Shown here: positions 24,856 to 63,737 of the stretch, one piece after another | Numbering within the stretch: position 1 is the stretch's first letter | Layout: each line of letters starts with the position of its first letter | Assembly: GCA_902800795.1 (NCBI GenBank) | Contig: CADCFQ010000003.1 | Span: forward strand, 1 to 64,000 | Direction: 5' to 3' | From: an uncultured Ruminococcus sp. | GTDB taxonomy: Bacteria > Bacillota > Clostridia > Oscillospirales > Ruminococcaceae | DNA length: 64,000 nucleotides | Translations under genes and position numbers: made by a program | Notes under the pieces: generated by a model | Databases searched by the model: none | What the model was told of the DNA's origin: nothing | Seen by the model: the letters and a program-made list of their open reading frames with translations, nothing else

Positions 24856-24884
24856 AGTATATCATTTTTCGCCCCGAATGTCAA
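24856..24884 (-). promoter_or_regulatory. Sigma-A promoter of the ATPase-NHLM exporter operon
   Basis: TTGACA (24879-24884) and TATACT (24856-24861) have 17-nt spacing on the minus strand, so the four genes share one strong promoter. Confidence 0.85.
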
Positions 24885-24933: not shown

Positions 24934-24939
24934 AAGCGA

Positions 24940-26208: not shown

Positions 26209-26292
26209 TGTTTTTTCTCCTGTCTGTTATATCTTTCAGCTGACCGTAAAGCTCTGAGATACCATTTTGCGCCGGGCTTTACGTTGGCCTTA

Positions 26293-27123: not shown

Positions 27124-27191
27124 ATCTGCCTCCTGTGATCCTGTATATCATAAGGCCGCATCCAGCCGTGGACGCAGCCTTATTGATTTTT

Positions 27192-30173: not shown

Positions 30174-30194
30174 GGGGTATCCTTTCAAACGCCT

Positions 30195-31247: not shown

Positions 31248-31317
31248 AGCCGGTTTCCTTTCCATAGGGTCAGTGGGGTCTGCGCCGCAGGGGCGCCAGA
31301 AAATAATTATTCATCTT

Positions 31318-31323
31318 ATTATA
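31318..31323 (-). promoter_or_regulatory. Possible -10 element of the adaptor-permease operon
   Basis: TATAAT lies on the minus strand about 70 nt before the adaptor ATG. The -35 at the right distance is poor, so this is weak evidence. Confidence 0.35.
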
Positions 31324-31393
31324 TCAAATATCTGTTCTTTTTTCTATATCCATATCACCGAAAATACATCAACATTTCTAAGCAAAATGCACA

Positions 31394-31421
31394 TAAAAAT
31401 CCCCCGGGATTTCCGGGGGAT
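31394..31421 (-). terminator. Intrinsic terminator of the STAS-ATPase pair
   Basis: ATCCCCCGG and CCGGGGGAT form a long GC-rich stem followed on the minus strand by TTTTT. It ends the two-gene unit before the adaptor promoter region. Confidence 0.85.
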
Positions 31422-31427
31422 AAGATG

Positions 31428-31982
31428 TCAATATATCTTTGTAACTATCAGTTCAACTTCACGGCCGATGGTCTTGACGGTAACGTCATCCGCAAGCTTA
31501 GCCATTATAGAACGCTCCAGCTCGTCCCAGGCGGGGCTGTTCATCTTGTCGTGAGCCTTGACCTCATCGATATAGCCCGAAAGGGTCCACATACAGGACT
31601 TGCCCTTTGTGACCATCGAGATAGCGCTTGCAAAGGCTCTGCTCACACGCTTGCCTATGCCTGCGTCCTCGCCAACCTCCGGGAGCTTCTTCGCAAAGGT
31701 CATATTCTCCTTGGGTGTGACCTTCATGTGCATCTCATACTGGGTGCCCTCGTTCTCTATCCAGAAGGTCGCAGAACCGTACTGCATCAGCTGGGGCACC
31801 AGACACATCAGCTCCTCCGACAAAAGACGAAGGTGCATAGTCTGCTTGCGGTCGAGATCATTCTGAGCCGCTATCTTCTCGGTCTCGTTAAGGATGACCT
31901 TGATCCTGCTGTCGGATGCTTGTCTGAAAACAGGATTGTCCATATCGCCGACACCGGTGATAAGAAAAGTGTTAGATTTCAA
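31428..31982 (-). CDS. Divergent RsbW-like ATP-binding protein (partner of STAS protein)
   Basis: The 184-residue protein starts at a TTG placed after AAGGAG. It resembles GHKL ATPases only loosely: an N-box-like segment (RLLSEELMCLVPQLM) lacks the usual Asn, and a G-rich piece (GEDAGIGKRVSRAFASAI) follows. It lies 17 nt after a STAS gene, the normal partner of anti-sigma ATPases. It may therefore be a regulatory ATPase with altered or lost kinase activity. Function beyond that is unknown. Confidence 0.55.
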   Translation of the reverse strand: MKSNTFLITGVGDMDNPVFRQASDSRIKVILNETEKIAAQNDLDRKQTMHLRLLSEELMCLVPQLMQYGSATFWIENEGTQYEMHMKVTPKENMTFAKKLPEVGEDAGIGKRVSRAFASAISMVTKGKSCMWTLSGYIDEVKAHDKMNSPAWDELERSIMAKLADDVTVKTIGREVELIVTKIY

Positions 31983-31999
31983 GTGGTCTCACTCCTTTT

Positions 32000-32299
32000 T
32001 CAGTCAAGCTCAAGAATGCTGTCAAAACCGGTTATCTCAAATATCTCCATAACGTCGGGATGAACATTGATGACCTTCATCTCTCCGTCCTTGTCCTCCA
32101 TAACATTATGCGCAGTGAGAAGCACTCTCAGACCTGCAGAGGATATGTAAGTAAGGTTTTCAAGATCAAACTCGAGAGCCTCAACAGTATCAAACACCTC
32201 GTCAAGCTCCTTTTCAAGTGTGGGAGCCGTAAGCGTATCGACCTTTCCAGAAATTTTGAAAACAGCCTTGCCGCCCTCTATGCTCTTTTTGATATCCAT
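32000..32299 (-). CDS. STAS-domain anti-sigma factor antagonist
   Basis: The 99-residue protein is a single STAS domain of the SpoIIAA/RsbV type. The phosphorylatable serine is in LTYISSAGLRVLLTAHNVM, and the C-terminal part is VMEIFEITGFDSIL. The start is the ATG 8 nt after AAAGGAG. It is closely similar to the STAS protein at 52354, including the shared IFE(I/V)TGF tail. It forms a two-gene operon with the divergent ATPase-like gene and has its own promoter. Confidence 0.9.
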   Translation of the reverse strand: MDIKKSIEGGKAVFKISGKVDTLTAPTLEKELDEVFDTVEALEFDLENLTYISSAGLRVLLTAHNVMEDKDGEMKVINVHPDVMEIFEITGFDSILELD

Positions 32300-32347
32300 A
32301 ACGGTCACTCCTTTATTCTGGTGGTTTCTGTTTATTTTGCCTATTCT

Positions 32348-47937: not shown

Positions 47938-47972
47938 AAAAAAAGACACCCCCGAAAAATGTCGGGAGTGCC
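47938..47972 (-). terminator. Intrinsic terminator of the STAS-MATE operon
   Basis: On the minus strand GGCACTCCCG pairs with CGGGGGTGTC and is followed by TTTTTTT, 10 nt after the metallophosphoesterase stop. Confidence 0.9.
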
Positions 47973-47981
47973 TTTGCTGTT

Positions 47982-48638
47982 TCATATCTTCGGATAGAGC
48001 TGTCTGAAAAGCTCCTTTCTTGAAAACGTCGTTTCGCCGCCGGGCTCGATATCAAGGATGTATTTGTCATAACAGTTGATTATCGTGGTGCCGCTGGGGT
48101 GTCTTAGTACCCTCTTGAAGCGGCTGCCGTAGGTGGCGTGGACATGGCCGTGGAGCATATATTTCGGGCGGCACTTTTCAAGCAGCCTGTTGAAGCACTC
48201 GAAGCCCTTGTGGGGTATATCCTCAAGGTCGCCGTAGCCTCTGGCAGGCGAATGTGTGACCAGCAGGTCGAAGCCGCCGTTTCTGACTATGGAGCGCCTT
48301 GACTTTTTGATGCGCTTCAGCATCTCCTTCTCGGTATACATATAAGGTCCTATGCCATAGCGCATTGAACCGCCGAAGCCGAGGATGCGCAGATCCTTAT
48401 ACTTATACACCTTTCCGTCCAGCAGCTCGCAGCCCTCGGGCGGGCGCTTTTCATAGCGGCTGTCGTGGTTGCCCGGAACATAGAGCACCGGCACCCTGCC
48501 CATTGTGACCAGAAACTCGAGATACTCGGCTCGCAGATCTCCGCAGGAAATGATAAGGTCGATCCCGTCAAGCTTATCGGGGGTGAAATAGTCCCACAGA
48601 TATTTAGATTCTTCGTCAGCTATAACAAGGATCCTCAT
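47982..48638 (-). CDS. Calcineurin-like metallophosphoesterase
   Basis: The 218-residue protein has the metallophosphatase metal sites: Asp in ISCGDLRAEYLEF, Asn-His in VPGNHDSR, His in LVTHSPARG and HGHVHATYG. It is a stand-alone soluble enzyme of the YfcE-like size class. It follows the BMP-type gene by 8 nt and closes the STAS-MATE operon, so its substrate may be a nucleotide or phosphoester linked to that system. The first metal motif (DxH) is degenerate: the N terminus reads VIADEES. Confidence 0.87.
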   Translation of the reverse strand: MRILVIADEESKYLWDYFTPDKLDGIDLIISCGDLRAEYLEFLVTMGRVPVLYVPGNHDSRYEKRPPEGCELLDGKVYKYKDLRILGFGGSMRYGIGPYMYTEKEMLKRIKKSRRSIVRNGGFDLLVTHSPARGYGDLEDIPHKGFECFNRLLEKCRPKYMLHGHVHATYGSRFKRVLRHPSGTTIINCYDKYILDIEPGGETTFSRKELFRQLYPKI

Positions 48639-48646: not shown

Positions 48647-50545
48647 CTAGATAAGATCAGAGTCGATGTTTTCGTTGAACCAGTCCATAAAGGCGATATC
48701 GCCTGTTTTGAGCGTCTGTCTCTCCACGGAAACGCCGGGCTTCTTGTCGATCTCGGCCTGATAAACAGTGCCGTCTGCTGTGTGCAGCTCTCCGGTAAAG
48801 GGATCAAAGCCGCCATTGACTATCGCCGTCTTGAAAAACGCCAGCATCTTATTTGTCTGATAGCTGATCCTGCTCACTCTTATATCCACAACACCGGTAG
48901 AAAGGCCGAACCAATAGCTGGCAGCGTTATGTGTTTTCATCTCGTCGCCCAGCTCCCAGGCGCCCGAAAGAACAGATTGGACTATCTGAACATAATACTT
49001 GCCCCAGCTGAAATAAGGAGCGCCTATATACTTGTCCTTCTCCTCATCCATACGGAAAAGTCCCGGGCGGCTCATAAGGTCTGCCTGACCCTCATAATCA
49101 AAGTCGGCATAATACCTTATCCCCTTTTGTTTCCATTCATCACGCAGAGCGTCGATGCTCTCGCCGCAGCCAAGCACTACCCTGCATTCGGGGTCCAGCA
49201 GGGACACGCCCACCGCAAAGGCATTGAGGACTCTCTTGCTCATATTGTCAAGGTTTCTTGTAAGATATCCTATCTTTCTTTCTCCGCCCACGCCGTCACG
49301 CAGCTGTGTGTCGGCCGCAAGGACGCCCATAAGGAAGGCAGCCTCATAAAGCTTTCCGTGATAATATCTCAAGGACGAATGCTTCTGACCCACCGAGCAG
49401 CAGAGTATCTTTGCCGAGGGGTTCTTTACAGCCGCTTTGAGAGCGTCGGGTATCATTGAGGGTGACACTGCAAATATTATCTCGTTCTTATCGGCGATCG
49501 CTCGCTCGATAGTCTCCTCAGTGGTCATCTCGCCTGTGCAGTAGCTTGTGGTCACAACGTTCTCATCGGTCATCTGCTCAACATACAGCCTTCCGGCCTC
49601 ATGGCTGTCCGTCCAGCGTGACAGCTCGGGGTCAGCGTCATAGATAAACGCAGCCTTCAGCGGCGACTGGGCAGTATACTTCTTCTTGCCCTGGATAAAC
49701 TGTCTGAACCGTGAGGTCTTCTGCTCGGCCGCCTCCGGAGCAGAGTCCAGGAAAGCGATATCGTCCGAGGTGACAGCCGAGAGCTCCGAGCTTGCAAGCT
49801 TGATGTTCTTGATTATCTGCTCCTCGGTATCCCTGAACAGAGTCTTCATCGGGAATATGGAGATATACATAAGGAACGCTTCCGAAAGCGCCCTGTCGTC
49901 ATCTATCTTCAGAACGCTCCTGCACTTCTTGCAGAAGCTGAAATAAGCAAGCTTCAGCTCGCTGCACACTGACTCCGGCCATTTCTTATCGAGGTCACGT
50001 CCCAGCAGGTCGGCCAGCTTTTCATAGCTTCCCACCTCGGTAAACACGATATAGATATTCTTCGTTGCCGCATAAAAGCGCAGATACTCGCTGTAGACTT
50101 TATATTCCTTGGTGTCCGAAGGCTTAGGCATTATGCGTCTTACATCCGCAAGGATAAACTCCATATCGCCGAAACGGGAAACAGACACACGCTTGTTTCC
50201 CTCCTGGACATAGTAGTTGTTCATATACTCATAGACCTTTATAGCGTCTCTTATGCCCTCATTCATAAAGGAATCATAGAGGTTCGACCACTTTGTGGCA
50301 AACTCGCTCCCCTCTTCAAGCAGGGGCATAAAGTTATTTGCAAAGGCAGAGTTGCGGCCGGCTTCCTTGTTTCCGATTATCCTTTTTACAGGCAGCTCCA
50401 GAAGACCCAGCCTGACCTCGCTGGAAGCAGACCTGACCTCGGGCATCTCGTCAAGTATCGGCAGATAAGGGTCGATCCCCTTTTTCTTTGCCTCCCTGAC
50501 GGCTTCCTCCGCAAGCTTCTTTGCGGCTTTATAATCTTCTCTCAT
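48647..50545 (-). CDS. Cytoplasmic ParB-like/BMP-family (nucleoside-binding-like) protein
   Basis: The 632-residue protein has no signal peptide or lipobox. Residues about 1-160 include a ParB/sulfiredoxin-like segment (YEYMNNYYVQEGNKRVSVSR, then FILADVRRIMP). Residues about 290-632 resemble BMP/Med-type substrate-binding domains (KAAFIYDADPELSRWTDSHE, NEIIFAVSPSM, AAFLMGVLAA, GVSLLDPECRV, GIRYYADFDY). Normally BMP proteins bind purine nucleosides outside the cell. Here the domain must act inside, probably as a sensor. It lies 36 nt after the MATE-ATPase gene. The ATG has GAGGAGG 6 nt upstream. Confidence 0.8.
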   Translation of the reverse strand: MREDYKAAKKLAEEAVREAKKKGIDPYLPILDEMPEVRSASSEVRLGLLELPVKRIIGNKEAGRNSAFANNFMPLLEEGSEFATKWSNLYDSFMNEGIRDAIKVYEYMNNYYVQEGNKRVSVSRFGDMEFILADVRRIMPKPSDTKEYKVYSEYLRFYAATKNIYIVFTEVGSYEKLADLLGRDLDKKWPESVCSELKLAYFSFCKKCRSVLKIDDDRALSEAFLMYISIFPMKTLFRDTEEQIIKNIKLASSELSAVTSDDIAFLDSAPEAAEQKTSRFRQFIQGKKKYTAQSPLKAAFIYDADPELSRWTDSHEAGRLYVEQMTDENVVTTSYCTGEMTTEETIERAIADKNEIIFAVSPSMIPDALKAAVKNPSAKILCCSVGQKHSSLRYYHGKLYEAAFLMGVLAADTQLRDGVGGERKIGYLTRNLDNMSKRVLNAFAVGVSLLDPECRVVLGCGESIDALRDEWKQKGIRYYADFDYEGQADLMSRPGLFRMDEEKDKYIGAPYFSWGKYYVQIVQSVLSGAWELGDEMKTHNAASYWFGLSTGVVDIRVSRISYQTNKMLAFFKTAIVNGGFDPFTGELHTADGTVYQAEIDKKPGVSVERQTLKTGDIAFMDWFNENIDSDLI

Positions 50546-50580: not shown

Positions 50581-52335
50581 CTACACCTTTATCGTTAGCA
50601 CATTAAGGCCCAGGACATAGTTATAATCCATTTCCTTGCTTATCCTGCACACCATCCTGATACCGATATTGTGAGTAACATCGTCAGGCTTGAAAAGCTT
50701 TGCAAACTCCTTCGGGTCAAAGGGCTTGCAGCTGTCCTTGAAGCGTATCAGGATCTCGTCCTTTTTATAGACGACCCTGATATCTATGCTGTTTTTCCTG
50801 TCCTTTTCAAAGCCGTGATCCACAATATTGCCTGCCATCTCCTCGATACACAGGCCGCTGTAAAATGCGTGCTTGTAGACCACGCCGTGATCGGTACAGA
50901 AGTCAAATACCCTCTGGGAGGTATCCAGCACATCGTCCTGATTCGTTACGGAGATATCCAGCCTGTCCTCCTCGGGAACGCCGAAGTCCGGTCTTATGAC
51001 CAGCAGGTCCTCCAGGCTTGTGGGGAGCTTTCCGTTTACCCATACCGAATAGAGGATGATAGCTGCTGTGGTATAATAGCCGGCCAGAGGCTGGGCTATC
51101 CATATACCCATAGCGCCCATGAAAGGAGCAAGTATCAGCGAGCTCAGACACACGCCGATGACTCCGTCTATAACGGAAATGATATTTACTATCTTCATCC
51201 TGTCCGAGCACTGGTAGTAGTTAAGGAATACCACACAGAAAGCGCTAAGCGGCATCGAGATCGGGAAGATGCGGAAATACTGCAAAGCCAGCCTGTATAC
51301 CTCGGAGCCGGGGTCGCTGTAGAAAAAGCTTGTGAAAAGCGGTGCTAACAGAATGGATATCGCTGCCGCACCGGCAACAAGACCGACACCCTTTGTAAGG
51401 GCTGTCTTCATTATCATAAGAAGGCCTGCTCTGTCTTCCTCGCCGTAATAAACGCTTGCCAGAAGCCTTGTGGCCGAAGCCACGCCGGCTGTCACCGCAT
51501 AGTAGACACAGCCGAAGGTCCCCACCGACGCAAAGGCCGCCAGTGCGTTCCTGCCTGCAAAGCGAAGTATCATCTGGTTGAGGGCAAGGCCTCTGACTGT
51601 CAGACAAAGCTGGACTATGGCGCCTGGTATGCCTATCTTTATCATCGGTGCAAGATAGGAAAGATCAAGCCCCTTGATACTGAAACGAACGGCAGACTTG
51701 CCTGTGAAATAATAGCTTGCCTGAACGATGCAGAAAAGCCAGCTGCTTATAGTAGTGGAAAGGCCGAGACCGAACATCCCCAGAGAGAATACCCTGACGA
51801 ACAGGAGGTTTAGAGCCACATTCGAGACCGCCATAACGGCGATACCCACATAGGTGCGCTTTTCCTGCTGCTCCAGCTGAAGGAACACCGACAGCTGTGC
51901 GGATATCATAGTCCCGGTTATACCGAAGGACATTCCCCTGAGATACTGCGCCATATCAGCCGCAGTCTTCGTATCGGCGCCGAGTATGCCGCCGACAAGA
52001 GACGGCGCAAACAGACAAGGCAGCGCTATCACTCCCGAGAACGCAAGCGTCACTAAAAGATCGAGCGAGAACACCTTGCCGGTCTTGTCAAGCTCGCCCT
52101 TGCCTATAAACTGTCCGCACATTATCTGCGAGCCGCCCAGCATGACCGCATTTACGGTGTCGGTGAATTTTAGCAAAGGCAGATAAAGCCCTATAACGCT
52201 GATCGCTATGGGGCCTATGAACCGGCTTGCTATCGCACCGTCGATTATGGAGTTTATGCTTCCTATAGCCACCAGTATTATCTGGACAGGCAGAAGACGG
52301 AAGAACAATCTTGTTATGATCTTGGAATCACCCAT
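50581..52335 (-). CDS. MATE-family transporter fused to an RsbW-like ATPase domain
   Basis: The 584-residue protein has twelve likely membrane helices of the MATE/multidrug efflux fold (about 10-450). Marks include GSINSIIDGAIASRFIG near the start and VMLGGSQIMCGQFIGKGEL. After a short linker, residues about 465-584 form a GHKL ATPase of the anti-sigma kinase type: N-box LCIEEMAGNIVDHGF, G1 DSCKPFDPKEF, G2 HNIGIRMVCRISKEMDYNY. Ordinary MATE proteins end at about 450 residues and use ion gradients. The gene lies 18 nt after a STAS gene, the classical partner of such ATPases, so transport and partner switching are physically linked in one protein. Confidence 0.92.
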   Translation of the reverse strand: MGDSKIITRLFFRLLPVQIILVAIGSINSIIDGAIASRFIGPIAISVIGLYLPLLKFTDTVNAVMLGGSQIMCGQFIGKGELDKTGKVFSLDLLVTLAFSGVIALPCLFAPSLVGGILGADTKTAADMAQYLRGMSFGITGTMISAQLSVFLQLEQQEKRTYVGIAVMAVSNVALNLLFVRVFSLGMFGLGLSTTISSWLFCIVQASYYFTGKSAVRFSIKGLDLSYLAPMIKIGIPGAIVQLCLTVRGLALNQMILRFAGRNALAAFASVGTFGCVYYAVTAGVASATRLLASVYYGEEDRAGLLMIMKTALTKGVGLVAGAAAISILLAPLFTSFFYSDPGSEVYRLALQYFRIFPISMPLSAFCVVFLNYYQCSDRMKIVNIISVIDGVIGVCLSSLILAPFMGAMGIWIAQPLAGYYTTAAIILYSVWVNGKLPTSLEDLLVIRPDFGVPEEDRLDISVTNQDDVLDTSQRVFDFCTDHGVVYKHAFYSGLCIEEMAGNIVDHGFEKDRKNSIDIRVVYKKDEILIRFKDSCKPFDPKEFAKLFKPDDVTHNIGIRMVCRISKEMDYNYVLGLNVLTIKV

Positions 52336-52353
52336 ATCGGTTCCTCTTTTTCA

Positions 52354-52656
52354 TCAGTATTCGATAGGTAAGAATTCGGTAAAGCCTGTCACCTCAAAGA
52401 TCTCCAGGATCTCGTCATTTGCATTGAATATCTTCATCGAGCCGCCTCTTCTGTCCATTTCCTGGGTGGCGGTTATGAGCATTCTCAGTCCTGCCGAGGA
52501 GATATAAACAACGTTCTTGAAATCAAAGTCAAGAGCCTTGACCTCATCGGGCATAGACAGCACTGTCTTTTCGATCTCGGGCGCTGTCTTTGCGTCGATC
52601 CTACCGGTTATTGTGACAGTGAACTTGTTCGCTGTATGAAGAGTAGCTATCTGCAT
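52354..52656 (-). CDS. STAS-domain antagonist, partner of the MATE-ATPase fusion
   Basis: The 100-residue SpoIIAA/RsbV-type protein has the phosphorylatable serine in VVYISSAGLRMLITATQEM and the tail ILEIFEVTGFTEFL. The start chosen is the ATG about 9 nt beyond AAAGGA; the ATG at 52665 sits too close to that site. It is the first gene of the operon STAS, MATE-ATPase, BMP-type sensor, metallophosphoesterase, and a paralogue of the STAS protein at 32000. Confidence 0.9.
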   Translation of the reverse strand: MQIATLHTANKFTVTITGRIDAKTAPEIEKTVLSMPDEVKALDFDFKNVVYISSAGLRMLITATQEMDRRGGSMKIFNANDEILEIFEVTGFTEFLPIEY

Positions 52657-52705: not shown

Positions 52706-52734
52706 ATTATAGCACAATAAATTTCAAAAGTAAA
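52706..52734 (-). promoter_or_regulatory. Sigma-A promoter of the STAS-MATE operon
   Basis: TTTACT (52729-52734) and TATAAT (52706-52711) are 17 nt apart on the minus strand, with the palindrome just downstream. Confidence 0.75.
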
Positions 52735-52744: not shown

Positions 52745-53080
52745 CAGGTGCGTACACCAGGGGCGAGCCCCTGGACCGCCTCCCCCACCCATCCGGGTTC
52801 CGTGCAAACTATTAGTGCCTCCCTGCCCTCCCCGGAGGGGAGGGGGATAGCTTCAACGGAACTTTTCAGTTGCACACTGCGTGAACCTTGGGAAATAGCT
52901 GAAATGTCTATTTTACAACAAAGCTGTAATAATCCGCCAGGGGCAAAGCCGTGCGGCGAGCACCTTGCTGCCAAGTGTAAAAGCTCGTTCAACAACTATG
53001 TTCAGCCCCGAGCCAGACAAATCTTTAGCTTTGCACAAGTCACTGGGCGAGGGAATTGGGTCCCGGCGTACACGCCTGGC
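52745..53080. repeat. Dispersed mosaic intergenic repeat, copy D
   Basis: It contains CAGGGGCGAGCCCCTGG, the CCTCCCCGGAGGGGAGGGGG palindrome, CACTGCGTGAACCTTGG, GCCGTGCGGCGAGCACC, CAGCCCCGAGCCAGAC and the closing CCCGGCGTACACGCCTGG. Its last about 40 bases are inside the reading frame of the second sortase. Confidence 0.85.
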
Positions 53081-53696
53081 ACCTCACTACCACTCTGCTG
53101 TAGCCGCTCCAGGTGCAGGTGAACACTGTCAGGTCCCAGTCCTCGCTTTTGTCATCCAGCTTTTCCCCCTCAAGGCCGCCCAGCAGCTCGAACCAGCCCA
53201 CGGTATAGCTGTGCTGTCTGCCGTTCACATCGGTGAATATGATCTCGTCTCCCACCGCCAGCTGATCGAGATCGATAAGGTAAGAGGTATAATTGTGGCC
53301 GCAGATAATAAGGTCGCCCTGTCTTACATCTCCGCTGTACTGGCACAGAGCATGGTGCATTTTATTATAGTCCCAGCCCTTGGTGACGGGCAGTTCCAGA
53401 TCGAGCTTAGGTATCTCAAGCAGCCCTATATAAAGCTCGCCGTCGATATCCAGCGGTATCAGCTCCTCAGCCTCGGTCTCGGCGCTTTCGTCCTGTGCCC
53501 GGCTGTCAGCGCCTGAGTCGGTGTTTTGCTGTCCGGTCTGCGCTTCAATATGCTCTCTTATGACCGCTGCCGTTTTCTCGGCGGCTTCGCCGGCTTTTTT
53601 GTCGGTGTACCTGTTATAAGCAACGAGGGACACCGCTGCACAAAGCACCAATGCCCCTGCTGCGATCAGCAAGCGACCGCATTTTTTGTTAGTCAT
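53040..53696 (-). CDS. Second sortase of the pilus operon, C terminus encoded by a repeat
   Basis: The 218-residue sortase has one membrane helix (about 8-28), a charged linker and a catalytic domain: His in IICGHNYTSYL, Cys in LTVFTCTWSGY and Arg in RVVVRC. The pattern is closer to class B/E-like sortases than to the class C enzyme next to it. It may attach the finished pilus to the wall or process the minor subunit. The final residues after RVVVRC (QACTPGPNSLAQ) are translated from repeat copy D, so the original end has been replaced. It overlaps the minor pilin gene by 8 nt. Confidence 0.88.
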   Translation of the reverse strand: MTNKKCGRLLIAAGALVLCAAVSLVAYNRYTDKKAGEAAEKTAAVIREHIEAQTGQQNTDSGADSRAQDESAETEAEELIPLDIDGELYIGLLEIPKLDLELPVTKGWDYNKMHHALCQYSGDVRQGDLIICGHNYTSYLIDLDQLAVGDEIIFTDVNGRQHSYTVGWFELLGGLEGEKLDDKSEDWDLTVFTCTWSGYSRVVVRCQACTPGPNSLAQ

Positions 53697-54447
53697 TACT
53701 GTTATCCTTCTTGGTATATATCCTTATCCCCATAGCGACCAGAGTCAGACCCAGGATCGCCATAACAGGCACAGGCCACCAGAGCTGTCCTGTCTGAGGA
53801 ATGCTTTTCTTGCCGCTGCCGTCAGCGTCACCGCCGCCGGTGTCCTTACCGGAGCTTGTGTCTGTGGTGCTGCTGTCGGTCATCGAGGATGAGTCGGGAG
53901 TGCTTTCAGATGTGCTCTCCGAAGAGCTCTCGCTCGAGCTGCTGTCCTCCGGGATATCCTCAGCCTCCAGCTTTGCCATTACCTCGGTGTCGCCGTCCTT
54001 GACCTCGACTATCGAAGGCACGGACGTATACTGTCTGCTGCCGATGGTCTGAGAGGAAGCGGTAATAAAATATATCCCTGCCTCGCCGACCTCGGCTCTT
54101 GCGATGCCCTCATCATCGGCTGTCACCAGAATATCAGGCTCGAGCTGACTGTCAAAGATAAACTGAGATATCTTTTCTGCGGTCTGCGCCACAGCCTCGG
54201 CGCTCAGATCATCGAAATCGGCTCCGCTTTCCGCAAAGGTCTCGTTCAGCGCAAAGCTGCCGTCCGCAGCCCTTGAGCCAATACAATATACACGCCATTT
54301 CATCGGCACAGGCTCGTCGCCGTACCTGCTGTTTATAACTATAGCTCCGTCAGAGGCAAAAACCCTCAGCGGCAGCATCAGAAGCATAGCCAGCACAATG
54401 CCGACTGCCGCCGCCAGCGTCATTCCCCTCCTTGATACAGTTCTCAT
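53689..54447 (-). CDS. Minor (basal-type) pilin with IPQTG sorting signal
   Basis: The 252-residue protein starts at the ATG 7 nt after GGGAGG. A signal peptide (about 1-32) is followed by one Ig-like SpaA/FctB-type domain, a Ser/Thr/Asp-rich stalk (about 165-215) and an IPQTG motif with hydrophobic helix and KK tail. The size, the stalk and the place between two sortase genes fit a basal pilin that fixes the pilus to peptidoglycan. Confidence 0.85.
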   Translation of the reverse strand: MRTVSRRGMTLAAAVGIVLAMLLMLPLRVFASDGAIVINSRYGDEPVPMKWRVYCIGSRAADGSFALNETFAESGADFDDLSAEAVAQTAEKISQFIFDSQLEPDILVTADDEGIARAEVGEAGIYFITASSQTIGSRQYTSVPSIVEVKDGDTEVMAKLEAEDIPEDSSSSESSSESTSESTPDSSSMTDSSTTDTSSGKDTGGGDADGSGKKSIPQTGQLWWPVPVMAILGLTLVAMGIRIYTKKDNSND

Positions 54448-54477
54448 ACTCATACCTCCCAAAAGCCCTCGGGCTCT

Positions 54478-55362
54478 CTAGCTTTTATCCTTATCGCTCT
54501 CAAGCACCGAGAGCGGATCCTTATGCGGAAATCTTTTTTTCTTCCTGCCTCCGAACAGCCACCAGCCAAGAAGGCCTGCCACAGGCAGAGCCGCTATGAA
54601 CGGCACCACTGCCATAGTGTCAAGCATTACCGCATCAGGCGGCACCTTGACAGGGCCGTTTTCATCGATATATCCTGTTCCCGACCTGTGTGCTGTCACC
54701 AGCAGCCTGTGTGTGTTTATACCGTAGGGCGTACAGGTCATAAGCGTCACAAGGTCACGGTCCGGGTCTATCGCCAGCTTTTTCGTGTCGTCCGGCAAAA
54801 CTATGCTTATCTCCTCCACCTCATAGGTGTATACCTCTTTGAGGACGGTTATCGTAAACTCGTCTCCCTCCACCAGCTTGTCAAGATCTGTGAAAAGCTT
54901 TGCCGAGGGCAGACCTCTGTGCGCCGAGATAACGGCATGGGTGCCCTTGCCGCCCACAGGCAGAGACGAGCCCTGAAGATGACCCACCGCCACATTCAGA
55001 ACGCCTTCGCTGGTGCCGTGATAGACCGGCAGCTCGACGCCTATCTGCGGGATATTGATTATCCCCATAACGCCTGTGCCCGTGATGTCGAGTATCTTAT
55101 CATAATCCGGCACTGACTCATAGTCAAGAAGCGGCGCCGAAAGCTCGGAGAGCTGTTTGTTATACTCCCTTGCTCTTTCAATAAGCTCTTTTTCCTTTTT
55201 GTCATCCAGCTTGTTTGCTGCTTTCTGATAGGCAGCCACCACACGGCTCTGGAGTCTTGTGTTCCACCAGTCACTTACAGCCGGATAAAGCATTACGGAG
55301 AGTCCCACCAGAAACACTATCACAAGGACGATAGTTGTCGCTCTGTTCTTTTTGTTACTCAT
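54478..55362 (-). CDS. Class C (pilus-polymerising) sortase
   Basis: The 294-residue enzyme has an N-terminal helix (about 9-28), catalytic His in ISAHRGLPSAKLF, Cys in LVTLMTCTPYGINTHR and Arg in HRLLVTAHR, and a C-terminal membrane helix (about 245-265) with a basic tail. Two membrane helices and TLMTCTPYGxNTHR are the hallmarks of class C. It should link pilin subunits through the Lys of the ITPK motif and the LPxTG-like signal of the neighbouring pilins. Confidence 0.95.
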   Translation of the reverse strand: MSNKKNRATTIVLVIVFLVGLSVMLYPAVSDWWNTRLQSRVVAAYQKAANKLDDKKEKELIERAREYNKQLSELSAPLLDYESVPDYDKILDITGTGVMGIINIPQIGVELPVYHGTSEGVLNVAVGHLQGSSLPVGGKGTHAVISAHRGLPSAKLFTDLDKLVEGDEFTITVLKEVYTYEVEEISIVLPDDTKKLAIDPDRDLVTLMTCTPYGINTHRLLVTAHRSGTGYIDENGPVKVPPDAVMLDTMAVVPFIAALPVAGLLGWWLFGGRKKKRFPHKDPLSVLESDKDKS

Positions 55363-55379
55363 GAGACCCTCCCTAATGC

Positions 55380-55401
55380 CCGACGGCGCTCAGGCCGTCG
55401 G
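55380..55401 (-). other. Intra-operon hairpin between the major pilin and sortase C genes
   Basis: CCGACGGC and GCCGTCGG form a perfect 8-bp stem with a six-base loop and no U-run. It may protect the 3' end of the major pilin message or lower sortase expression relative to pilin. Confidence 0.6.
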
Positions 55402-55444
55402 ACGAAGGTTAAATTAAATTACTTAGCTTTTTTGCAAAGGAGAA

Positions 55445-57049
55445 TTACTGCTCTCTCTTTGCTCTCTTTCTTGCAACGAGGACTACGCCTGCTGCTGCTG
55501 CTGTAAGGCCGCCGCCAACATAGAACAGTGTGGTACCGATGCCGCCTGTCTCGGGAAGCTCTGCGCCCTCCTTGGCGTTTACGATCTCAGTTGCGATCGT
55601 GCCGTTATCAGTGTCAGGAGTGAATCCGCTGTCTGTTACTTGCAGTTCCTCAAAAGCGGTCGTTCCGTTATCGACAACATATGTCCAGTCGCCTGCATTG
55701 TTCATGTCAACATTTACAGTAAACTCAATGTCTTGTCCAAGAGGAGTATAGCCCTCGGGAGCCTCTGTCTCACGGATGTAATACTTTTCTGAATCCAGAC
55801 CTGCAACTATGAACTTACCGTCATCTTCGGTAGTTACCTCTGTTCCGCTATCAACATCATCAGCCCAGCCGGCAAACTTGCCGTTTGTGATGATAGCAGC
55901 CTTGGTCTTATCTGCATTGAGAAGCTTGAACTTAGCGCCGTCAAGCTCTTCCTGTGTTACCTCATCTGTCTTGGTAGCATCGAGTGTATAAGTGAATACA
56001 ACTGTTCCGTCCGGGGCGGTCTCCGTGGTATCGTCGTGTTCGCCGTGGTCATCTATTCCGTTGCCGTCATACTCATAGTCTGTGGAATATTTAAGTGTAA
56101 CACCGTTTGTGTTTCCAAGCCGACCGATAACCGCATCGGTATCAAGAACTGCGCTGTATTTTACAACGATCTTGCTGTCCTTGTCCACGCCCTGAACAGC
56201 CTTGATATTGTTGAACTTGATGCTGATGTTTGTAGAACCGTCATCATTTGTTGTTTTTGTAATGGCAGCCTGATCTGTGATGTCTGTCTCGCCGTTCAAA
56301 AGAACCTGGAAAGCAGAAGTCTCGGGAGCCACAAAGCCGGCAGCAAGACGGTCAACGAACTCATAGTAATAGCCGTTAGTGTAGTTGCCCAGTGTCTCGG
56401 GAAGCGAGCCTACCAGCTCGAAAGGAACTGCCTCGCCTATGCAGTAGTCGGCTGCATCATTGTATTTAGGCTCGTAAAGATCTTCGTCCATAACATCGCC
56501 GAGCGAAACTGTCCTGTCGTCCTCCTTGACCTTCTTCTCTACCTTGGGAGCACCAAGCTTCGGTGTGATCTGTGTGTTAGCATCCAATTTGAGAAGGATA
56601 TCAGCCTGACCTCCATCAGCGTCAGACTCGCTGATGTAATAATAACCATTTGATAACTCAGTGCTTTCTCCTTTTACAAGCGGGGTTGGATTTCCTTCTA
56701 TAACCCCATCTGTTTTAAGCACCGAAAGAATCTGTTCAGCGCTCATTCCATCAAGAGCCTTGAGAGCATTTGCCGGTGTCTTATCATCGCCGCTAAGGTT
56801 AAGAGCAGCATAAAGATTAGCAGCATTTACGTTATAACCAATGCTCAGATCTTTTGTCAAAAGCTCTCCGTTTTCATAATTGCCCTGAAAGATCTGATAT
56901 GCTCCATAAGTATTATTTGCGCTGTCTCCTACGGATATAACGCTCGTTCCGACTGCGGGTGGCTCTGATGCGAAAGCTGTCATTCCCACAACGCTCACTG
57001 CCATTGTCATTGCTGCCACGGTAGCTGCTATCCTCTTTGTTAATTTCAT
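55445..57049 (-). CDS. Major pilin (SpaA-type backbone subunit) with LPETG signal
   Basis: The 534-residue protein starts at the ATG after AAAGGAG; the longer open frame upstream is not supported. It has a signal peptide (1-32), a pilin-motif-like segment (ANTQITPKLGAPKVEKKVKE, with Lys for cross-linking), two or more CnaB/SpaA isopeptide domains with an E-box (YYIRETEAPEGYTPL), and ELPETGGIGTTLF with a membrane helix and RKRAKREQ tail. It would form the pilus shaft through sortase C. Confidence 0.93.
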   Translation of the reverse strand: MKLTKRIAATVAAMTMAVSVVGMTAFASEPPAVGTSVISVGDSANNTYGAYQIFQGNYENGELLTKDLSIGYNVNAANLYAALNLSGDDKTPANALKALDGMSAEQILSVLKTDGVIEGNPTPLVKGESTELSNGYYYISESDADGGQADILLKLDANTQITPKLGAPKVEKKVKEDDRTVSLGDVMDEDLYEPKYNDAADYCIGEAVPFELVGSLPETLGNYTNGYYYEFVDRLAAGFVAPETSAFQVLLNGETDITDQAAITKTTNDDGSTNISIKFNNIKAVQGVDKDSKIVVKYSAVLDTDAVIGRLGNTNGVTLKYSTDYEYDGNGIDDHGEHDDTTETAPDGTVVFTYTLDATKTDEVTQEELDGAKFKLLNADKTKAAIITNGKFAGWADDVDSGTEVTTEDDGKFIVAGLDSEKYYIRETEAPEGYTPLGQDIEFTVNVDMNNAGDWTYVVDNGTTAFEELQVTDSGFTPDTDNGTIATEIVNAKEGAELPETGGIGTTLFYVGGGLTAAAAGVVLVARKRAKREQ

Positions 57050-57095
57050 AAAAAACACTCCTTTTTTGATTTGAGATAATATACTATATCCAAGC

Positions 57096-60000
57096 TTATC
57101 GGCTTTCCGCCTTACGCTTTTTAACTGTGAACAGCACCATCGCTCCAAGCATGAGCCCCGAGCCTGTGATGATGTAAAGTGTTGTTCCCTCGCCGCCTGC
57201 TTCAGGCAGTTCATAGGCATCAACATCCTGTGACTGGTTGGTCACCGTTACCGAGCTTGTCTTGTTCTCTTCAAGAACGAAGCCGTTCTTTGTGTAGTCG
57301 ATAGGTGTGAAAGCGGAGCTGTCACGCTCGACAACATAGTAGTAGACCGGCTGTCCGCCGCTTGTGAGCGGGAGCCCATCATAGGTGCCGCTCCATTTGC
57401 CTGTTGCGTCGTCCTTTGTGACTGTCAGGGTCTTCGATACGACCGGCGTTCCCGAAGGAAGCGTCGGGGTGTACTCGGAGTAGGTGTCTGACGGTTCGGT
57501 CTGCTGAGAAGCTATATAGCTGTCAAGGTCAGACTTGCTGTCAAATACCGTGACATCCTGACCGCCGCTTGTCACACTGAACAGATAATCATCGGATGTC
57601 GGTGCGTTCCACCAGCCATAATTAGTGCTTGTGCCGTATGAGTAGGATACATTTATGTCAACATTCGTGTTCTCCTGCCCTGCTGTGATATTGAAGCTGC
57701 ATCCCGGCCCTGTCTGGTTCTGCCAGAAATCGCTGCTTGCCGCAGAGTTGACATCAAACTTCTTGACATGACCGCTTGTATAGGATCGTCCTCCGATATT
57801 AAGCGTATATGTTTCGCCCGGAGTGACCACAAAGTACTTTTTCAGGTCATAAACATAATGATTATCCTGATTGTCGGCGCCCTGGAAGTTTATCGTCACA
57901 TAATCAGAAGCTCCTGCGCTCTGGCTGTATTCGCTCGGTTCCTGATCTACCTTCTCGGTGTAGCCCACGATGTCGAAGGTCAGCTGGTCAACATCTGCTT
58001 CGTCTCCCAGCCAGCTCTTGTTCACCGTTATCGAGCTTCTCGGCGTATCATCCTGAACATTCTGGATCATAAGTTCTCCGTTATTGAGTCCATTGACCAG
58101 ATAGCTGGTATAATAACCTTCAACTTCCGACTCCTCAGTTACATAGTAGTAATATGAATCTTCAAAGTCATCGCTGTCAAAGGTATAACTCCAACCATTT
58201 TCAGCATTAAGAATTACAGGCTGGCCTATTTTTTCTGCATTTGAAACATCAAACTGAGGAGAAGATTCTATTCCCGGTTTTGAAGTCTGATAAACAGCCC
58301 TTTCTGAAACATTATTATCCGTGATCCGCAGTGTCAAAAGCGTATCTCCCGTGATAGGAGCCGATATTCTCCGATTATAACCGTCGATCTTGTCAGTGCC
58401 GTCATAGTCTGTCCAGTCTTCCTGAGTGAATGCAAATGTAAAATACTCATTCAGTTCAGCCTTGAAAACATAGGAATAAGATTTAAGTACATTGCCACTC
58501 CAATCAAGCTTTTCAACATTTATCGTAACTGTTGGTACTTCTGACTGCGGCGGAGACAATGTTCTCCAAAGCTGAGCGCTTATCTCATCAGGTCTTAGGT
58601 TCTCATTATCATCATACCATGTCTTTTTGACCGACAGTTCGATCTTATCGTTCTCAAGCTCGATCTTTGTCCCCGAGCGCACCGCTTCAACTACGCTGTC
58701 CGAAACGCCCGCTTTCGCTATTGCAAGAACAGGCTTACAGCTGTTCGCTGTTTCGTCCTTGGGCTGCTCGAAGAAATAATGGTCTCTTGTGCCTTCATCG
58801 AAGGTGTATCCTGTGGGTGCTTTTATCTCACGAAGAACATATACACATCTCTGCTGTCCGTTCGGCAGCTCATCGATAGTATAGTAGTTCCTGGTCTCCT
58901 GGACTCCGCCCACATCAACGGTCTTTTCCTCAAACGTCTGAAGACAAGGCAGCTCTATCTGTCCTGTCTGATCGTCTGTGATGAGCACCTTTGCTCCGCT
59001 GTCAGCAGAGATCACACCATCGCTCCATACACCAAAGGTAGTAGCGTTGTAGTTCGTCTCGCTGGAGTGATCGTTCTCGATCCACTCATAGATCTCGGCC
59101 ACTGTTTGCTCACCCGTAAGGGTCTGCCACTTGCCGTCGTTATCACATCTCATAAGCACGAACTGTGCTCCGCCGAGAGACTTGATCCAGTTGTCGGAGC
59201 TTATCTTTCTCAGCGAGATGTTGTTGATAGTCGAAGCATAGGCTCCCGAGCTCTGATACTTGTTGAAGCTCTGGTTGAAATCCTCGGTCGCAGTAGCGTT
59301 CTGACCTGTTATGGTAGCGTTGTTCTTGAGCTCCATTTTCTCAGCATTGTAATTGTCGTCGTTCTTAGCCTGCTCGTTGAACTCGAACTGATAGTTGTAA
59401 ACTATCCTTATGTGGGTCTCGTCAGGAACCGTCAGCCTGAAGGTGTAAACATCGCCCTCACCAAGAGTACCGCCGTAAACCGGCAGCGTCTTTCTTTCCG
59501 GTTCCGTAAAGCCGAACTCATCTGTGTCCAGCTCTATCTCCTGATCGCCGACCACCTTGTAGATATGTATGCTGTTTGCCGACAGCTGCGAGAACAGTAT
59601 AGGACACCTTGCATAGTCCGAGCTGTATTCGCTCTGGTTTATAGTGTCTGTTACTGTCAGCATACCCTGGTCATCGGGCAGCAGCTTTCTGGCATTGGGG
59701 TTTATATCCAGTGTATAGGATACCGCATTGTCTATCAGCTTGCCGTTGTCACGGTACTCCGAAGCTGTCTTGCTTATCTTCGGCACATCGTCATTGAACG
59801 TTGTGGAGATACTGTCGAAATCGTCCCCGACCTGTGCCGTATTCTCAAATCCTGCGACGCCGCTGGCAGATGACGTAGTGTCTGCAAGCATAGCGTCCAT
59901 TGTTTCGTCATCGATCTTTACGGTGTAGTAAAGCTCAACATAACCGCCGCCGTGAATATCTCCGGGAACGGTAAAGGTAAGCTCTCTGTCGTTCTGAGCC

Positions 60001-63000
60001 CAGGTGACACCACCCGAGGTCGTTATAGCTGACCTCTCAGTGTCTGTACCTGCGATATACTCACCTGAAACGAAATCCATACCCTCGGGCAGGGTATCCG
60101 TCACGGTTATATCCTGACTTGCGCTGTAGCTCTTTGACTGATTGACACCGAGCATATACTTGACCAGATAACAGCCCTGCTCGTTGTCGTGCTCCACCTT
60201 TGAAAGACCGAAGGTCTTGTCATAAACCGTGTATACCTCCTGATAAGGAGCGTAATCTAAGTTCTGTACATATTTTGAGATCGCAGGTTTTTTCTCGATC
60301 TCGTGTGTCACTGTCTTGTCGGGAGTTCCCGGGAAGGACAGCGTGTTTTCATACGAAAGCTTCTCGCCCAGTTCAAGGTCTGCGAGCACACCTGCGCCCT
60401 CAGCTCTCGAACGATATTTGAGCGTCAGCTCGTTGGCATCCCTAAGCGCCTTGTACTCATCCGAATCCTCGTCCGTCTGGGTCTTGAAGGTAACCTTGAA
60501 TGCCGTTATGTTCCCGTCTGCGTCGGTCTGAGTCGCCGTAAGCTCGAACAGGTCGCTGGGTTTAAGGTCTCCCAGCACCGAAGCCCAGGTGGGCTCGTGC
60601 TCTTTCATCTCAACGGTGAAAAGCTCGTCGATGTCGAACTCATCCGCAGGGATGTAATTCTTCAGCGCTTGTGCATCCTCGGCAGAAAGAGTCTTTGTCT
60701 GTCCGCCTGTTCCAACGGCTCTCACCGACATATTGTCGCCTATCTCATAGCCCTGCTCCATCGCATAAATGAAGCCCTCGTTATAGGTCACGAGCTTGAG
60801 GGTCCAGAGTATATCAAAGCTGCCCTCGGAGTCAGCGTCCGATGCCGAAGCCGACTTTGAAGACTCTTTCATCATTTCCCAGGAGTATACATCTATCGTC
60901 TTGGTCTTTTCATCCGGACCGTAGGTAACATGATTGGTCACCGATATCTTCTGCTCGGTGAGCCCCACGGGGTCGGGAAGCTTTGTTTTATAGGTAAAGG
61001 TATAGGAAGCGGAGTCCATTCCCGAATGGAAGTTATAGTCTCCTGCCCTTACTGCTTCAAGGTCTCCCGCCTGGGTCACATCGTTCCCGTCAGCGTCAGT
61101 TACCGTGAAGCTCCTGATACCGTCATCGAACATCGTATCAGTCAGCGGATAGCCAAGCTCCGAAAGGTCAGCCCCATAGGGATTGTAGACCGTCACCGTC
61201 CATGTGATAAGGTCGGTGTTCTTGTCATAGCTCGCGCTCTTTTCGCTAAGAGATACAAACGGGTCTATGCTCTCATTGTGAGTATCGGTTTCGTCATCCC
61301 AGGTCGCAGTATTATGAAGATCATAGCCGTAGTCTGCTATAAAGCTGCTGCCGGATGGATTTAAAACATACTCGATATCAAATCTCTTCTGCGTGGTGCT
61401 TACATCGATAGTAAAGGTCGTGGAAACTGTGTTGCCGTCCACGGTTCCCTGTCTTGTTATCCCCGAAGACGGGCTTATAACAGTGAGGTCAAAATCCGAA
61501 GCGCTCACAGAAGAGCCGTCCTTCTTGGTTATCGTCAGGACATCCGTGATCTGTGCGCCCTGAAGGTCAGCTCCATACTGATTGATAAAGCTTACCTTAT
61601 AGTGCATAAGGCCGTCTGCGCCGAGATAGCCGCTCTTCTCGACCTCATACTCCTTCGGGATGTGGGCATCTTCGGTGTCTTCATCAAGTGTGCCCTCGTC
61701 GTTCTCTATCTTTACATCATTTGTAAACGTCTCGTTCTTATGGTCTGCAAAGTCCATCTGCTGAAGATAGGTTATCTCATAGGATGAAGCATTTGCGGTC
61801 ACACCCTCCTTGAAGGTCAGGACATTTCCGTTCACATCGAAAATATCCGTGATCGGTACCTCGGTACCTCCCACCCTGACCGTTGCACTGCTGAGATCGG
61901 GCGGCGTCTGAGCCTCTCCGCCCAGCGAAAGGGTATCCGTTATATCAAGCCCTGCAAGATCCTGTCCTGCGCTGTTGTCAACAGTTATGGTCCACTGTAT
62001 GCCGTCATCCGCAAGGATATGATCCTTTGAAACATCGGGCTTGTTCACCGTTACATACTTGTCGGGGTCTATCCTGACATACTCTCCAGGCTGCTCCGGG
62101 TCTTCAAGACCCACCCAGTTGAACTCGGTCTTGCCGTAGTCGTCACTTGTGACCTCGGTCTTATAGTAGATGACAAACTCCTTGATCGGTGTCTCATTGT
62201 AGTCCTGCCAGTCGCCGGAGGTCGGACGGTCCATATTTATCGTGAATGTGCCGTCTGAATACTCCACAGGGTGAACGCCCTTTATCACCTGATCAGCATA
62301 GGTTATCGAGTATTCCACATCGTCCTCATCCACGAAGGTCATAGTCGGCGTGCCCACGAGCACGGGAGCTTTGGTTCCGGGGTTTTCCTTAGTTCCGTCG
62401 CCGCCCATAAAGTCATCGATGTTTATAACGCCGTTCTGCCACCAGCCGTTCTCCTTGTGGACGGATATCCTCCACTCAACAGTGTTGGTCGCCGGGTCAT
62501 AGGTTCCGTTGCCCTTGGTAACGTCAGCCACAAGACCTACCTGGATATAAGCGTCGTCATCCGCTTCCGGAACGTTCTTCGCTTTCGCCGTTACGGTGTT
62601 GTGTCCGTAGATCTCGTTGAAATCATCCTTGTCAACGTGTACCGTCCCGTCAGGATTGAGATGCTCCTCGTTTACAGTTACCGGACAATTCCAGTAGTAG
62701 TCGAAGCCCCTGCTAAGCAGCGTCTGGTCTGTTGCCGTCAGCGATGCCGTGAGCACCTGTTCGCCGCCTATGGTCGTTATCGAGTCGATAGTCAGCACAG
62801 GGTCGAACAGCTCATTGCCGTCTGCATCGAACAGCTTCCAGGTCATACCGGGCACAAGGTCGAAATGGACATCGTCACAGGTCAGCGTATCGGTAAAGGT
62901 CACCTTTCCGCCGTCAACTCCGTTTCTGGAATTGATATCTATCCTGAAGGACGAACCCAGGCCTCTCTTGGCTTCATCGCCTGTACCCATCGAAGCGCCC

Positions 63001-63737
63001 TCGGTGGCATAGAAGAAGTCGTTGTTATAGCTCTTCGTTACCGAAAGATCAGCAGTATGAGTATACCTGTAGATCGGGACTACAACATCGTTTCCTGCTA
63101 TTTTGAAGGACTTGTCCTCCTGGCTGTTGTCTTCATTCCAGGTCCAGGCCTGGAAATTGAAGCCGCCGCCGATAGCCTCGCCCTGTCTGCCGTCAAAGTA
63201 CGGTACCGTGAAATCGAAGGTTATGGTAACGTCTCCCGTTGCAGGGTCGAACACATAGGTGCCTATCTTTGCCTTGTCATCGCCGTTGGTATAAACATCG
63301 CCCGTTGAAGTCATGGAGGAGTCAAACTCAAAGCCAACGTTATTCACTGGCCCCACATTGAAGGTTATACTGTTGGCGTGCTGGTTCAGGCTCTGGACAG
63401 TCTCTGCTGTCAGATTGAACTTTGCAGTCAGGTCAGTATAATACTTCTTAGGCGAGCCCTTGTCGTCCTTGGTGATCTTGGCCTCAACAGCATACACGCC
63501 TGTAGCGCTGGAGCTGGAAGCATGGCTTATCTCCAGCGGGTCGCCTGTGACCTCATTGCCGGCGCCCAGCAGCATAACGCTGCCCGAACCCGGCGACAGG
63601 CTTATGGCCGGTCTTATCAGGCTGCCGTAAACGCTTAAAGCAACAGTTGCAGCCATCAGGCCTGCCATAACAGACCTAAGCCGTTTCCTCCTCTGAGCGT
63701 TAAGAAAGCCCGACAAGCTTTCTTTATTTAATCTCAT
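57096..63737 (-). CDS. Giant tip pilin/adhesin with isopeptide and CnaB domains
   Basis: The 2213-residue surface protein has an N-terminal signal (about 1-47) and a non-repetitive adhesin-like head (about 60-400). Many bacterial Ig-like/isopeptide-type domains follow (about 400-1500; for example VEWRISVHKENG, IQWTITVDNSAGQDL and ITWTVTVYNPYGADL). CnaB domains with an E-box (LREIKAPTGYTF) and starts such as LSVKKTWYDDNENLRPDE and ITVNKSWLGDEA come next. A YELPEAGGEGTTLY sorting signal and a KKRKAE tail end the protein. It has the layout of a pilus tip or host/fibre-binding subunit. The ligand is unknown. It is preceded by a signal peptidase gene. Confidence 0.9.
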   Translation of the reverse strand: MRLNKESLSGFLNAQRRKRLRSVMAGLMAATVALSVYGSLIRPAISLSPGSGSVMLLGAGNEVTGDPLEISHASSSSATGVYAVEAKITKDDKGSPKKYYTDLTAKFNLTAETVQSLNQHANSITFNVGPVNNVGFEFDSSMTSTGDVYTNGDDKAKIGTYVFDPATGDVTITFDFTVPYFDGRQGEAIGGGFNFQAWTWNEDNSQEDKSFKIAGNDVVVPIYRYTHTADLSVTKSYNNDFFYATEGASMGTGDEAKRGLGSSFRIDINSRNGVDGGKVTFTDTLTCDDVHFDLVPGMTWKLFDADGNELFDPVLTIDSITTIGGEQVLTASLTATDQTLLSRGFDYYWNCPVTVNEEHLNPDGTVHVDKDDFNEIYGHNTVTAKAKNVPEADDDAYIQVGLVADVTKGNGTYDPATNTVEWRISVHKENGWWQNGVINIDDFMGGDGTKENPGTKAPVLVGTPTMTFVDEDDVEYSITYADQVIKGVHPVEYSDGTFTINMDRPTSGDWQDYNETPIKEFVIYYKTEVTSDDYGKTEFNWVGLEDPEQPGEYVRIDPDKYVTVNKPDVSKDHILADDGIQWTITVDNSAGQDLAGLDITDTLSLGGEAQTPPDLSSATVRVGGTEVPITDIFDVNGNVLTFKEGVTANASSYEITYLQQMDFADHKNETFTNDVKIENDEGTLDEDTEDAHIPKEYEVEKSGYLGADGLMHYKVSFINQYGADLQGAQITDVLTITKKDGSSVSASDFDLTVISPSSGITRQGTVDGNTVSTTFTIDVSTTQKRFDIEYVLNPSGSSFIADYGYDLHNTATWDDETDTHNESIDPFVSLSEKSASYDKNTDLITWTVTVYNPYGADLSELGYPLTDTMFDDGIRSFTVTDADGNDVTQAGDLEAVRAGDYNFHSGMDSASYTFTYKTKLPDPVGLTEQKISVTNHVTYGPDEKTKTIDVYSWEMMKESSKSASASDADSEGSFDILWTLKLVTYNEGFIYAMEQGYEIGDNMSVRAVGTGGQTKTLSAEDAQALKNYIPADEFDIDELFTVEMKEHEPTWASVLGDLKPSDLFELTATQTDADGNITAFKVTFKTQTDEDSDEYKALRDANELTLKYRSRAEGAGVLADLELGEKLSYENTLSFPGTPDKTVTHEIEKKPAISKYVQNLDYAPYQEVYTVYDKTFGLSKVEHDNEQGCYLVKYMLGVNQSKSYSASQDITVTDTLPEGMDFVSGEYIAGTDTERSAITTSGGVTWAQNDRELTFTVPGDIHGGGYVELYYTVKIDDETMDAMLADTTSSASGVAGFENTAQVGDDFDSISTTFNDDVPKISKTASEYRDNGKLIDNAVSYTLDINPNARKLLPDDQGMLTVTDTINQSEYSSDYARCPILFSQLSANSIHIYKVVGDQEIELDTDEFGFTEPERKTLPVYGGTLGEGDVYTFRLTVPDETHIRIVYNYQFEFNEQAKNDDNYNAEKMELKNNATITGQNATATEDFNQSFNKYQSSGAYASTINNISLRKISSDNWIKSLGGAQFVLMRCDNDGKWQTLTGEQTVAEIYEWIENDHSSETNYNATTFGVWSDGVISADSGAKVLITDDQTGQIELPCLQTFEEKTVDVGGVQETRNYYTIDELPNGQQRCVYVLREIKAPTGYTFDEGTRDHYFFEQPKDETANSCKPVLAIAKAGVSDSVVEAVRSGTKIELENDKIELSVKKTWYDDNENLRPDEISAQLWRTLSPPQSEVPTVTINVEKLDWSGNVLKSYSYVFKAELNEYFTFAFTQEDWTDYDGTDKIDGYNRRISAPITGDTLLTLRITDNNVSERAVYQTSKPGIESSPQFDVSNAEKIGQPVILNAENGWSYTFDSDDFEDSYYYYVTEESEVEGYYTSYLVNGLNNGELMIQNVQDDTPRSSITVNKSWLGDEADVDQLTFDIVGYTEKVDQEPSEYSQSAGASDYVTINFQGADNQDNHYVYDLKKYFVVTPGETYTLNIGGRSYTSGHVKKFDVNSAASSDFWQNQTGPGCSFNITAGQENTNVDINVSYSYGTSTNYGWWNAPTSDDYLFSVTSGGQDVTVFDSKSDLDSYIASQQTEPSDTYSEYTPTLPSGTPVVSKTLTVTKDDATGKWSGTYDGLPLTSGGQPVYYYVVERDSSAFTPIDYTKNGFVLEENKTSSVTVTNQSQDVDAYELPEAGGEGTTLYIITGSGLMLGAMVLFTVKKRKAESR

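Follow-up and report, generated by a model that had tools for sequence, protein, structure and literature searches.

A MATE-family transporter with a C-terminal domain of the RsbW/SpoIIAB type is encoded directly downstream of a STAS gene in the 64,000-nucleotide stretch of an uncultured Ruminococcus sp. genome analysed here (hereafter the window), and related fusions recur across Bacillota in association with genes for partner switching. With modest confidence, we favour partner switching in which the transporter itself contains the receiver: a PP2C phosphatase and an RsbW-type kinase would control the phosphorylation state of the STAS protein, which would dock on the fused domain and change transport.

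Organization of the STAS–MATE operon

All window features described below lie on the (-) strand. The fusion (50581..52335, 584 aa) was delineated by Pfam profile matches, with a MATE part at residues 1-440 (51016..52335; MatE, 1.1e-22, in two stretches) followed by a HATPase_c_2 domain at residues ~455-584 (50584..50973; 2.5e-7, above cut-off). This confirms the architecture proposed in an earlier, sequence-only reading, although the ATPase domain spans roughly 130 residues rather than the 120 given there. The STAS gene directly upstream, likewise recognized in that reading together with its phospho-serine context, is separated from the fusion by 18 nt and encodes a 100-aa STAS-only protein of the RsbV/SpoIIAA type (52354..52656; Pfam STAS, 7.4e-15); the start used is the one with a usable Shine-Dalgarno, the ORF list giving 52665 with an alternative start. 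Downstream, after gaps of 35 nt and 8 nt, respectively, follow genes for a Bmp/PnrA-like protein of 632 aa (48647..50545; Pfam Bmp, 3.7e-6) and a calcineurin-like metallophosphoesterase of 218 aa (47982..48638; Pfam Metallophos, 8.9e-10). A consensus scan alone places a putative promoter (TTTACT-17-TATAAT, extended -10; 52706..52734) 5' of the STAS gene, and a strong, putative intrinsic terminator hairpin (14-pair stem and T run; 47942..47975) that would close this four-gene operon.

Relative to a 91%-identical orthologue (L001), dN/dS was 0.065 for the MATE half, 0.08 for the HATPase half, and 0.02 for the STAS gene, and these low values indicate purifying selection that maintains all three. 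The metallophosphoesterase gene also neighbours the fusion in L001, L003, L006, and L071. The Bmp-like protein has no evident signal peptide and a poor predicted structure (pLDDT 51), and Pfam leaves some 290 residues at its N-terminus unmatched; it is possibly a cytoplasmic ligand sensor. Directly upstream of the operon, the region 53040-63737 contains, besides large genes for LPxTG-like surface proteins, a Pfam-identified sortase gene (53040-53696) and a sortase-like one (54478-55362), and is probably a pilus or adhesin cluster.

Both partners of the putative switch resemble characterized proteins. The STAS protein passes the curated ant_ant_sig profile TIGR00377 (68.1 against a cut-off of 53.5 bits), and its best solved relative is RsbV in the RsbW/RsbV complex (PDB 6m36), in which the DSTGL phospho-serine site aligns to the SSAGLR of the window motif YISSAGLR; the pattern SSA[GA]LR is present in every STAS protein encoded near a fusion (25/25). 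The transporter half belongs to the MatE family, with two MatE repeats over ~430 residues, and aligns with DinF-BH over residues 15-422. The whole core (residues 13-422) aligns with DinF/NorM-type MATEs (5c6o, 3vvn, 6fhz), whereas the C-terminal ATPase domain was covered by none of the ten PDB matches to the MATE-HATPase protein. The N-lobe Asp is kept, D32 lying close in the alignment to the corresponding acid of PfMATE and DinF-BH; with regard to cation-coupled transport, the feature seen was conservation of this Asp, present in 62/71 fusions.

Fusions and their gene neighbourhoods across Bacillota

A search of ~1,090 Bacillota genomes (397 from the same family, 392 from the class, and 299 from the phylum) returned fusion-type matches at strict cut-offs in 32, 27, and 7 genomes, respectively, the sets overlapping slightly. 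Because the fusion recurs in 71 non-redundant proteins, it is real and not a chance occurrence. A frameshift or mis-assembly artefact was also considered and rejected, because the ORF is shared, mostly at 570-620 aa, by orthologues whose identity ranges from 91% to as low as 20-30%. A plasmid search with the fused domain gave no match.

Tallying the neighbours of proteins that join MatE and HATPase_c_2 domains, as the sequence-only reading had proposed, revealed a marked association with partner-switching genes. Using the same home-made profiles (STAS, PP2C, and HATPase) for the 71 fusions and for a control of 40 unfused MATE genes from the family of the window genome, we found that 34/71 fusions but 0/40 controls had a STAS, PP2C, or RsbW gene within 5 kb on the same strand (P 5e-9, an exact value not to be over-read, as the controls come from one family and the fusions from the whole phylum). 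Within these limits, STAS genes accompanied 24/71 fusions and PP2C genes 23/71, each against 0/40 unfused MATEs, so that the absence of a STAS neighbour throughout the homologues, which had been named beforehand as evidence against the idea, was not observed. Free RsbW (15/71), NRPS (13/71), and Bmp-like genes (8/71) were also detected near fusions and near none of the controls. In the window clade of six members, the STAS gene is adjacent in five. Conversely, 37/71 fusions had no partner-switch gene within 5 kb, including a second MATE-HATPase fusion of the window genome (G000:C4:3459-5213, L072), which is 30% identical to the first and has no STAS neighbour.

Several loci carry a full set of partner-switching genes. 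STAS, a SpoIIE-type PP2C, and a free RsbW-like kinase occur together in L004, L077, L092, L097, L105, L133, and L135, in the order STAS, PP2C (HAMP-SpoIIE), fusion, DUF218 protein, RsbW in L004, and STAS, one further gene, fusion, PP2C, RsbW in L092, L097, and L133. L108 and L109 can be added to these loci, with a STAS-APH-HATPase protein. The L108 order is STAS, STAS-APH-HATPase, two further genes, fusion, a Bmp-like gene of the window type, and PP2C, and this combination of Bmp-like gene, PP2C, and STAS ties the window operon type to a full switch system. The proteins encoded beside the fusion at L108:7139-8701 and L109:7452-9041 each unite STAS, an APH-like phosphotransferase, and a complete HATPase_c_2 (by Pfam for the L108 copy only). 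In several loci, the PP2C neighbours are membrane sensors with dCache or HAMP domains. Fusions next to large NRPS genes were seen in L091, L098-L101, L103, L104, L107, L119, L124, L125, L130, and L134; L099, L101, L104, and L130 combine NRPS, fusion, STAS, and PP2C-HATPase in varying order. An NRPS-adjacent fusion is possibly the exporter of the peptide product.

The window operon itself encodes neither a sigma factor nor a PP2C, as initially read from the sequence, but this does not extend to the system as a whole, since operons of relatives carry PP2C and five PP2C genes lie elsewhere in the window genome. Indeed, that genome has further STAS, RsbW, and PP2C genes at several loci, alongside a spoIIA-sigF-like operon, so that a phosphatase is available in trans to the window STAS protein. 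A second partner-switch set lies near export genes within the window (19579-32308). It includes a STAS gene with an intact SSAGLR (32000-32308), a protein of 184 aa whose LLSEEL motif recalls a degenerate HATPase (31428-31982), and a free RsbW-like kinase (24404-24865), the last encoded upstream of two ABC transporter genes for NHLM bacteriocin export (TIGR03796 and TIGR03797, above cut-off). The 184-aa protein is resembled by proteins of 210-214 aa encoded beside fusions at L077:5914-6558 and L082:5992-6624, which have no Pfam match and an N-box-like LLTEE.

These same resources could serve a different arrangement, in which the transporter is the sensor, its fused domain binding or releasing the STAS protein (or a sigma factor) depending on the state of transport, with transcription as the readout through an RsbW/sigma pair encoded elsewhere, as in trigger transporters. 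Gene neighbourhood by itself does not discriminate between the transporter as output and as sensor. STAS proteins could be shared with the other switch loci and the spoIIA-sigF-like operon of the genome, and in some operons a free, fully intact RsbW sits beside the fusion. Against this, a single-query phmmer search, which could miss distant sigma types, detected no same-strand SigF-like gene up to 5 kb away from any of the 71 fusions (one was seen on the opposite strand near the fusion in L078), and STAS and PP2C genes are grouped with transporter and biosynthetic (NRPS) genes, not with regulators. We consider a sensor role unlikely. The original interpretation is thus supported in part: its core suggestion, that partner switching acts on the transporter and not on transcription, draws support from comparative genomics, namely the STAS/PP2C/RsbW association and the lack of SigF-like neighbours, as well as from the nearest folds of the fused domain.

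Fold and catalytic residues of the fused domain

When the C-terminal piece (residues 430-584) was modelled separately with AlphaFold2 (pLDDT 87) and compared to the PDB, with Foldseek also used, the closest folds were UsfX, SpoIIAB, and RsbW (Z 15.8-15.0 over 111-128 residues), followed by Rv1364c, LvrC, and SiaB (Z 12.5-14), while ordinary histidine kinases started at Z 8.6 (DesK). The predicted GHKL fold of the fused domain is hence nearest to the partner-switching kinases RsbW/SpoIIAB.

The nucleotide-binding boxes are less uniform than the sequence-only reading, which had described complete N, G1, and G2 boxes, suggested. The N box (L-x-x-EEMAGN-x-x-DHGF) is intact and has the Glu and Asn of RsbW/SpoIIAB-type kinases; in an alignment to SpoIIAB, E499 and N503 pair with the N-box Glu and Asn, positions that we take to be those of the catalytic Glu and the Mg-binding Asn. 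The G1 (DxG) and G2 (GxG) boxes of these kinases are by contrast altered in the window domain: the G1-like box DSCKPFDP reads DxC (D534-S-C536), and the G2-like box NIGIRM reads N-I-G558, the first Gly being lost. Free RsbW neighbours of fusions have instead retained a GGLG G2 box (15/15) and a DxG G1 box (14/15, with NxG in one). The curated RsbW anti-sigma equivalogs TIGR01924 (17.1 vs 155 bits) and NF003144 (22.9 vs 145) were not reached. C536 replaces the G1 Gly throughout the window clade, and a Cys at such a site of the nucleotide pocket might confer redox sensitivity or just be tolerated; among all 71 fusions, 39 have C at this position and 23 have G.

At the other key positions, conservation across the 71 fusions is high, with E/D499 in 69, N503 in 57, D534 in 63, and G558 in 62. 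All four residues are present together in 53/71, and 18/71 have lost at least one. Judged from these residues, ATP binding by the window domain is plausible. A kinase activity of the fused domain itself, as suggested in the sequence-only reading, is not established, given the departure of G1 and G2 from free RsbW and the loss of catalytic residues in several relatives. The possibility that catalytic decay tracks the presence of a separate kinase nearby was not supported (intact in 15/22 vs 38/49, P 0.56).

Such losses would fit a C-terminal domain that is a degenerate ATPase (a pseudokinase) and serves, with no STAS role, to sense nucleotides or as a structural tail, the STAS protein belonging to another kinase; the many fusions lacking a local partner gene would also fit. 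Yet the association with STAS and PP2C genes is far above that of unfused MATEs, the STAS gene is adjacent in nearly all of the window clade, and E499, N503, D534, and G558 are invariant in an alignment of the nine first-found relatives, which together make this explanation distinctly improbable.

Evolutionary history

In a tree of the MATE half, the 71 fusions fall on one side of a branch (SH-aLRT 99) and the 40 unfused MATEs on the other, and a tree of the ATPase domain likewise places the fused domains on one side (94) versus 30 free, PP2C-linked or STAS-linked kinases; both trees are the product of quick searches, and few columns underlie the ATPase tree. Since fusions group together on both trees, the data fit one old fusion that was kept with switch genes and would often have been parted from them later. 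A recent fusion of an operon's own RsbW was rejected, as the fused domains lie on their own side of the ATPase tree. Ordinary co-regulation, in which STAS and fusion genes share an operon by chance or expression timing with no functional contact, is in keeping with the variety of other operon neighbours (Bmp-like, NRPS, DUF218, and tyrosine phosphatase genes), but the association recurs in distant families of the phylum and on most deep branches of the MATE-half tree and is absent from the controls, leaving this very improbable.

Proposed mechanism

In the partner-switching arrangement that we favour as the most economical, a PP2C, encoded in the same operon in many relatives and elsewhere in the window genome, would together with an RsbW-type kinase determine how far the STAS protein is phosphorylated. 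A membrane PP2C would read a signal and dephosphorylate the STAS protein, which in its unphosphorylated form would dock on the RsbW-like domain that the MATE protein carries at its cytoplasmic C-terminus, and this docking would alter transport activity. As the only kinase candidate in the window operon, the MATE-borne domain may there also phosphorylate the STAS protein with cell ATP; next to a free RsbW, its role may be chiefly that of a dock. The fusion with its conservation, the gene association, and the fold underlie this model; STAS binding, phosphorylation, the direction of gating, and the substrate are inferred.

Relation to known systems

Partner switching is known mainly for freeing sigma factors, with few enzyme targets. 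The window pair has in common with RsbV/RsbW and SpoIIAA/SpoIIAB (PDB 6m36, 1th8, 1tid, 1l0o) the HATPase_c_2 fold, the N-box Glu and Asn, and the STAS phospho-serine motif, and a SpoIIE-family PP2C is likewise present in many fusion operons. Unlike in these systems, the ATPase forms part of a MATE transporter, a sigma gene is absent, the G1 Gly is replaced by Cys, and the first G2 Gly is lost. In Pseudomonas, SiaABC partner switching targets the enzyme SiaD and not a sigma factor, and the output of SiaABCD and HsbR-HsbA-HsbD is a protein activity, as proposed here (PMC7647112, PMC8457831), SiaB also being a fold match of the fused domain (Z 12.5). The target in those systems is however a separate diguanylate cyclase, whereas here transporter and switch domain form one polypeptide. 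SLC26/SulP transporters with a C-terminal STAS domain (PMC8256260) similarly combine a transporter with one half of the STAS/anti-sigma toolbox, but they belong to another transporter family and have the STAS half fused, while in the MATE fusions the kinase half is fused and the STAS protein is free. What would be new here is thus a partner-switch domain as part of a pump, otherwise working like known systems. We found no description of a MATE-HATPase fusion in open-access papers, which is weak evidence of novelty.

A comparable gene content has been reported in an archaeon. In Methanobrevibacter ruminantium, the cluster mru0066-0071 combines NRPS with a MatE gene and with genes for serine phosphatases and an anti-sigma antagonist, the authors reading the regulators as acting on NRPS expression (PMC2812497). 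This cluster is like the NRPS-linked fusions by gene content, its host being an archaeon and mru0069 being compared as a MatE gene only. For Methanomicrobiales, genome authors stated that the targets of SpoIIAA/SpoIIAB-like proteins could not be determined (PMC2686161).

A transporter that bears the kinase half of a partner switch and is conserved across Bacillota next to genes for STAS proteins, PP2C, and kinases, and often near NRPS genes as well, suggests that export is gated directly at the post-translational level, and the STAS protein and the C-terminal domain form a testable two-protein system. Somewhat more tentatively, extracellular signals received by membrane PP2Cs could gate efflux post-translationally through STAS binding to the pump, and the same device may be a target for 'anti-sigma' modules that are orphans in archaea lacking sigma factors (PMC2686161). 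The fusions would thereby offer a candidate answer to the role of SpoIIAA/SpoIIAB-like proteins where sigma factors are absent (PMC2686161).
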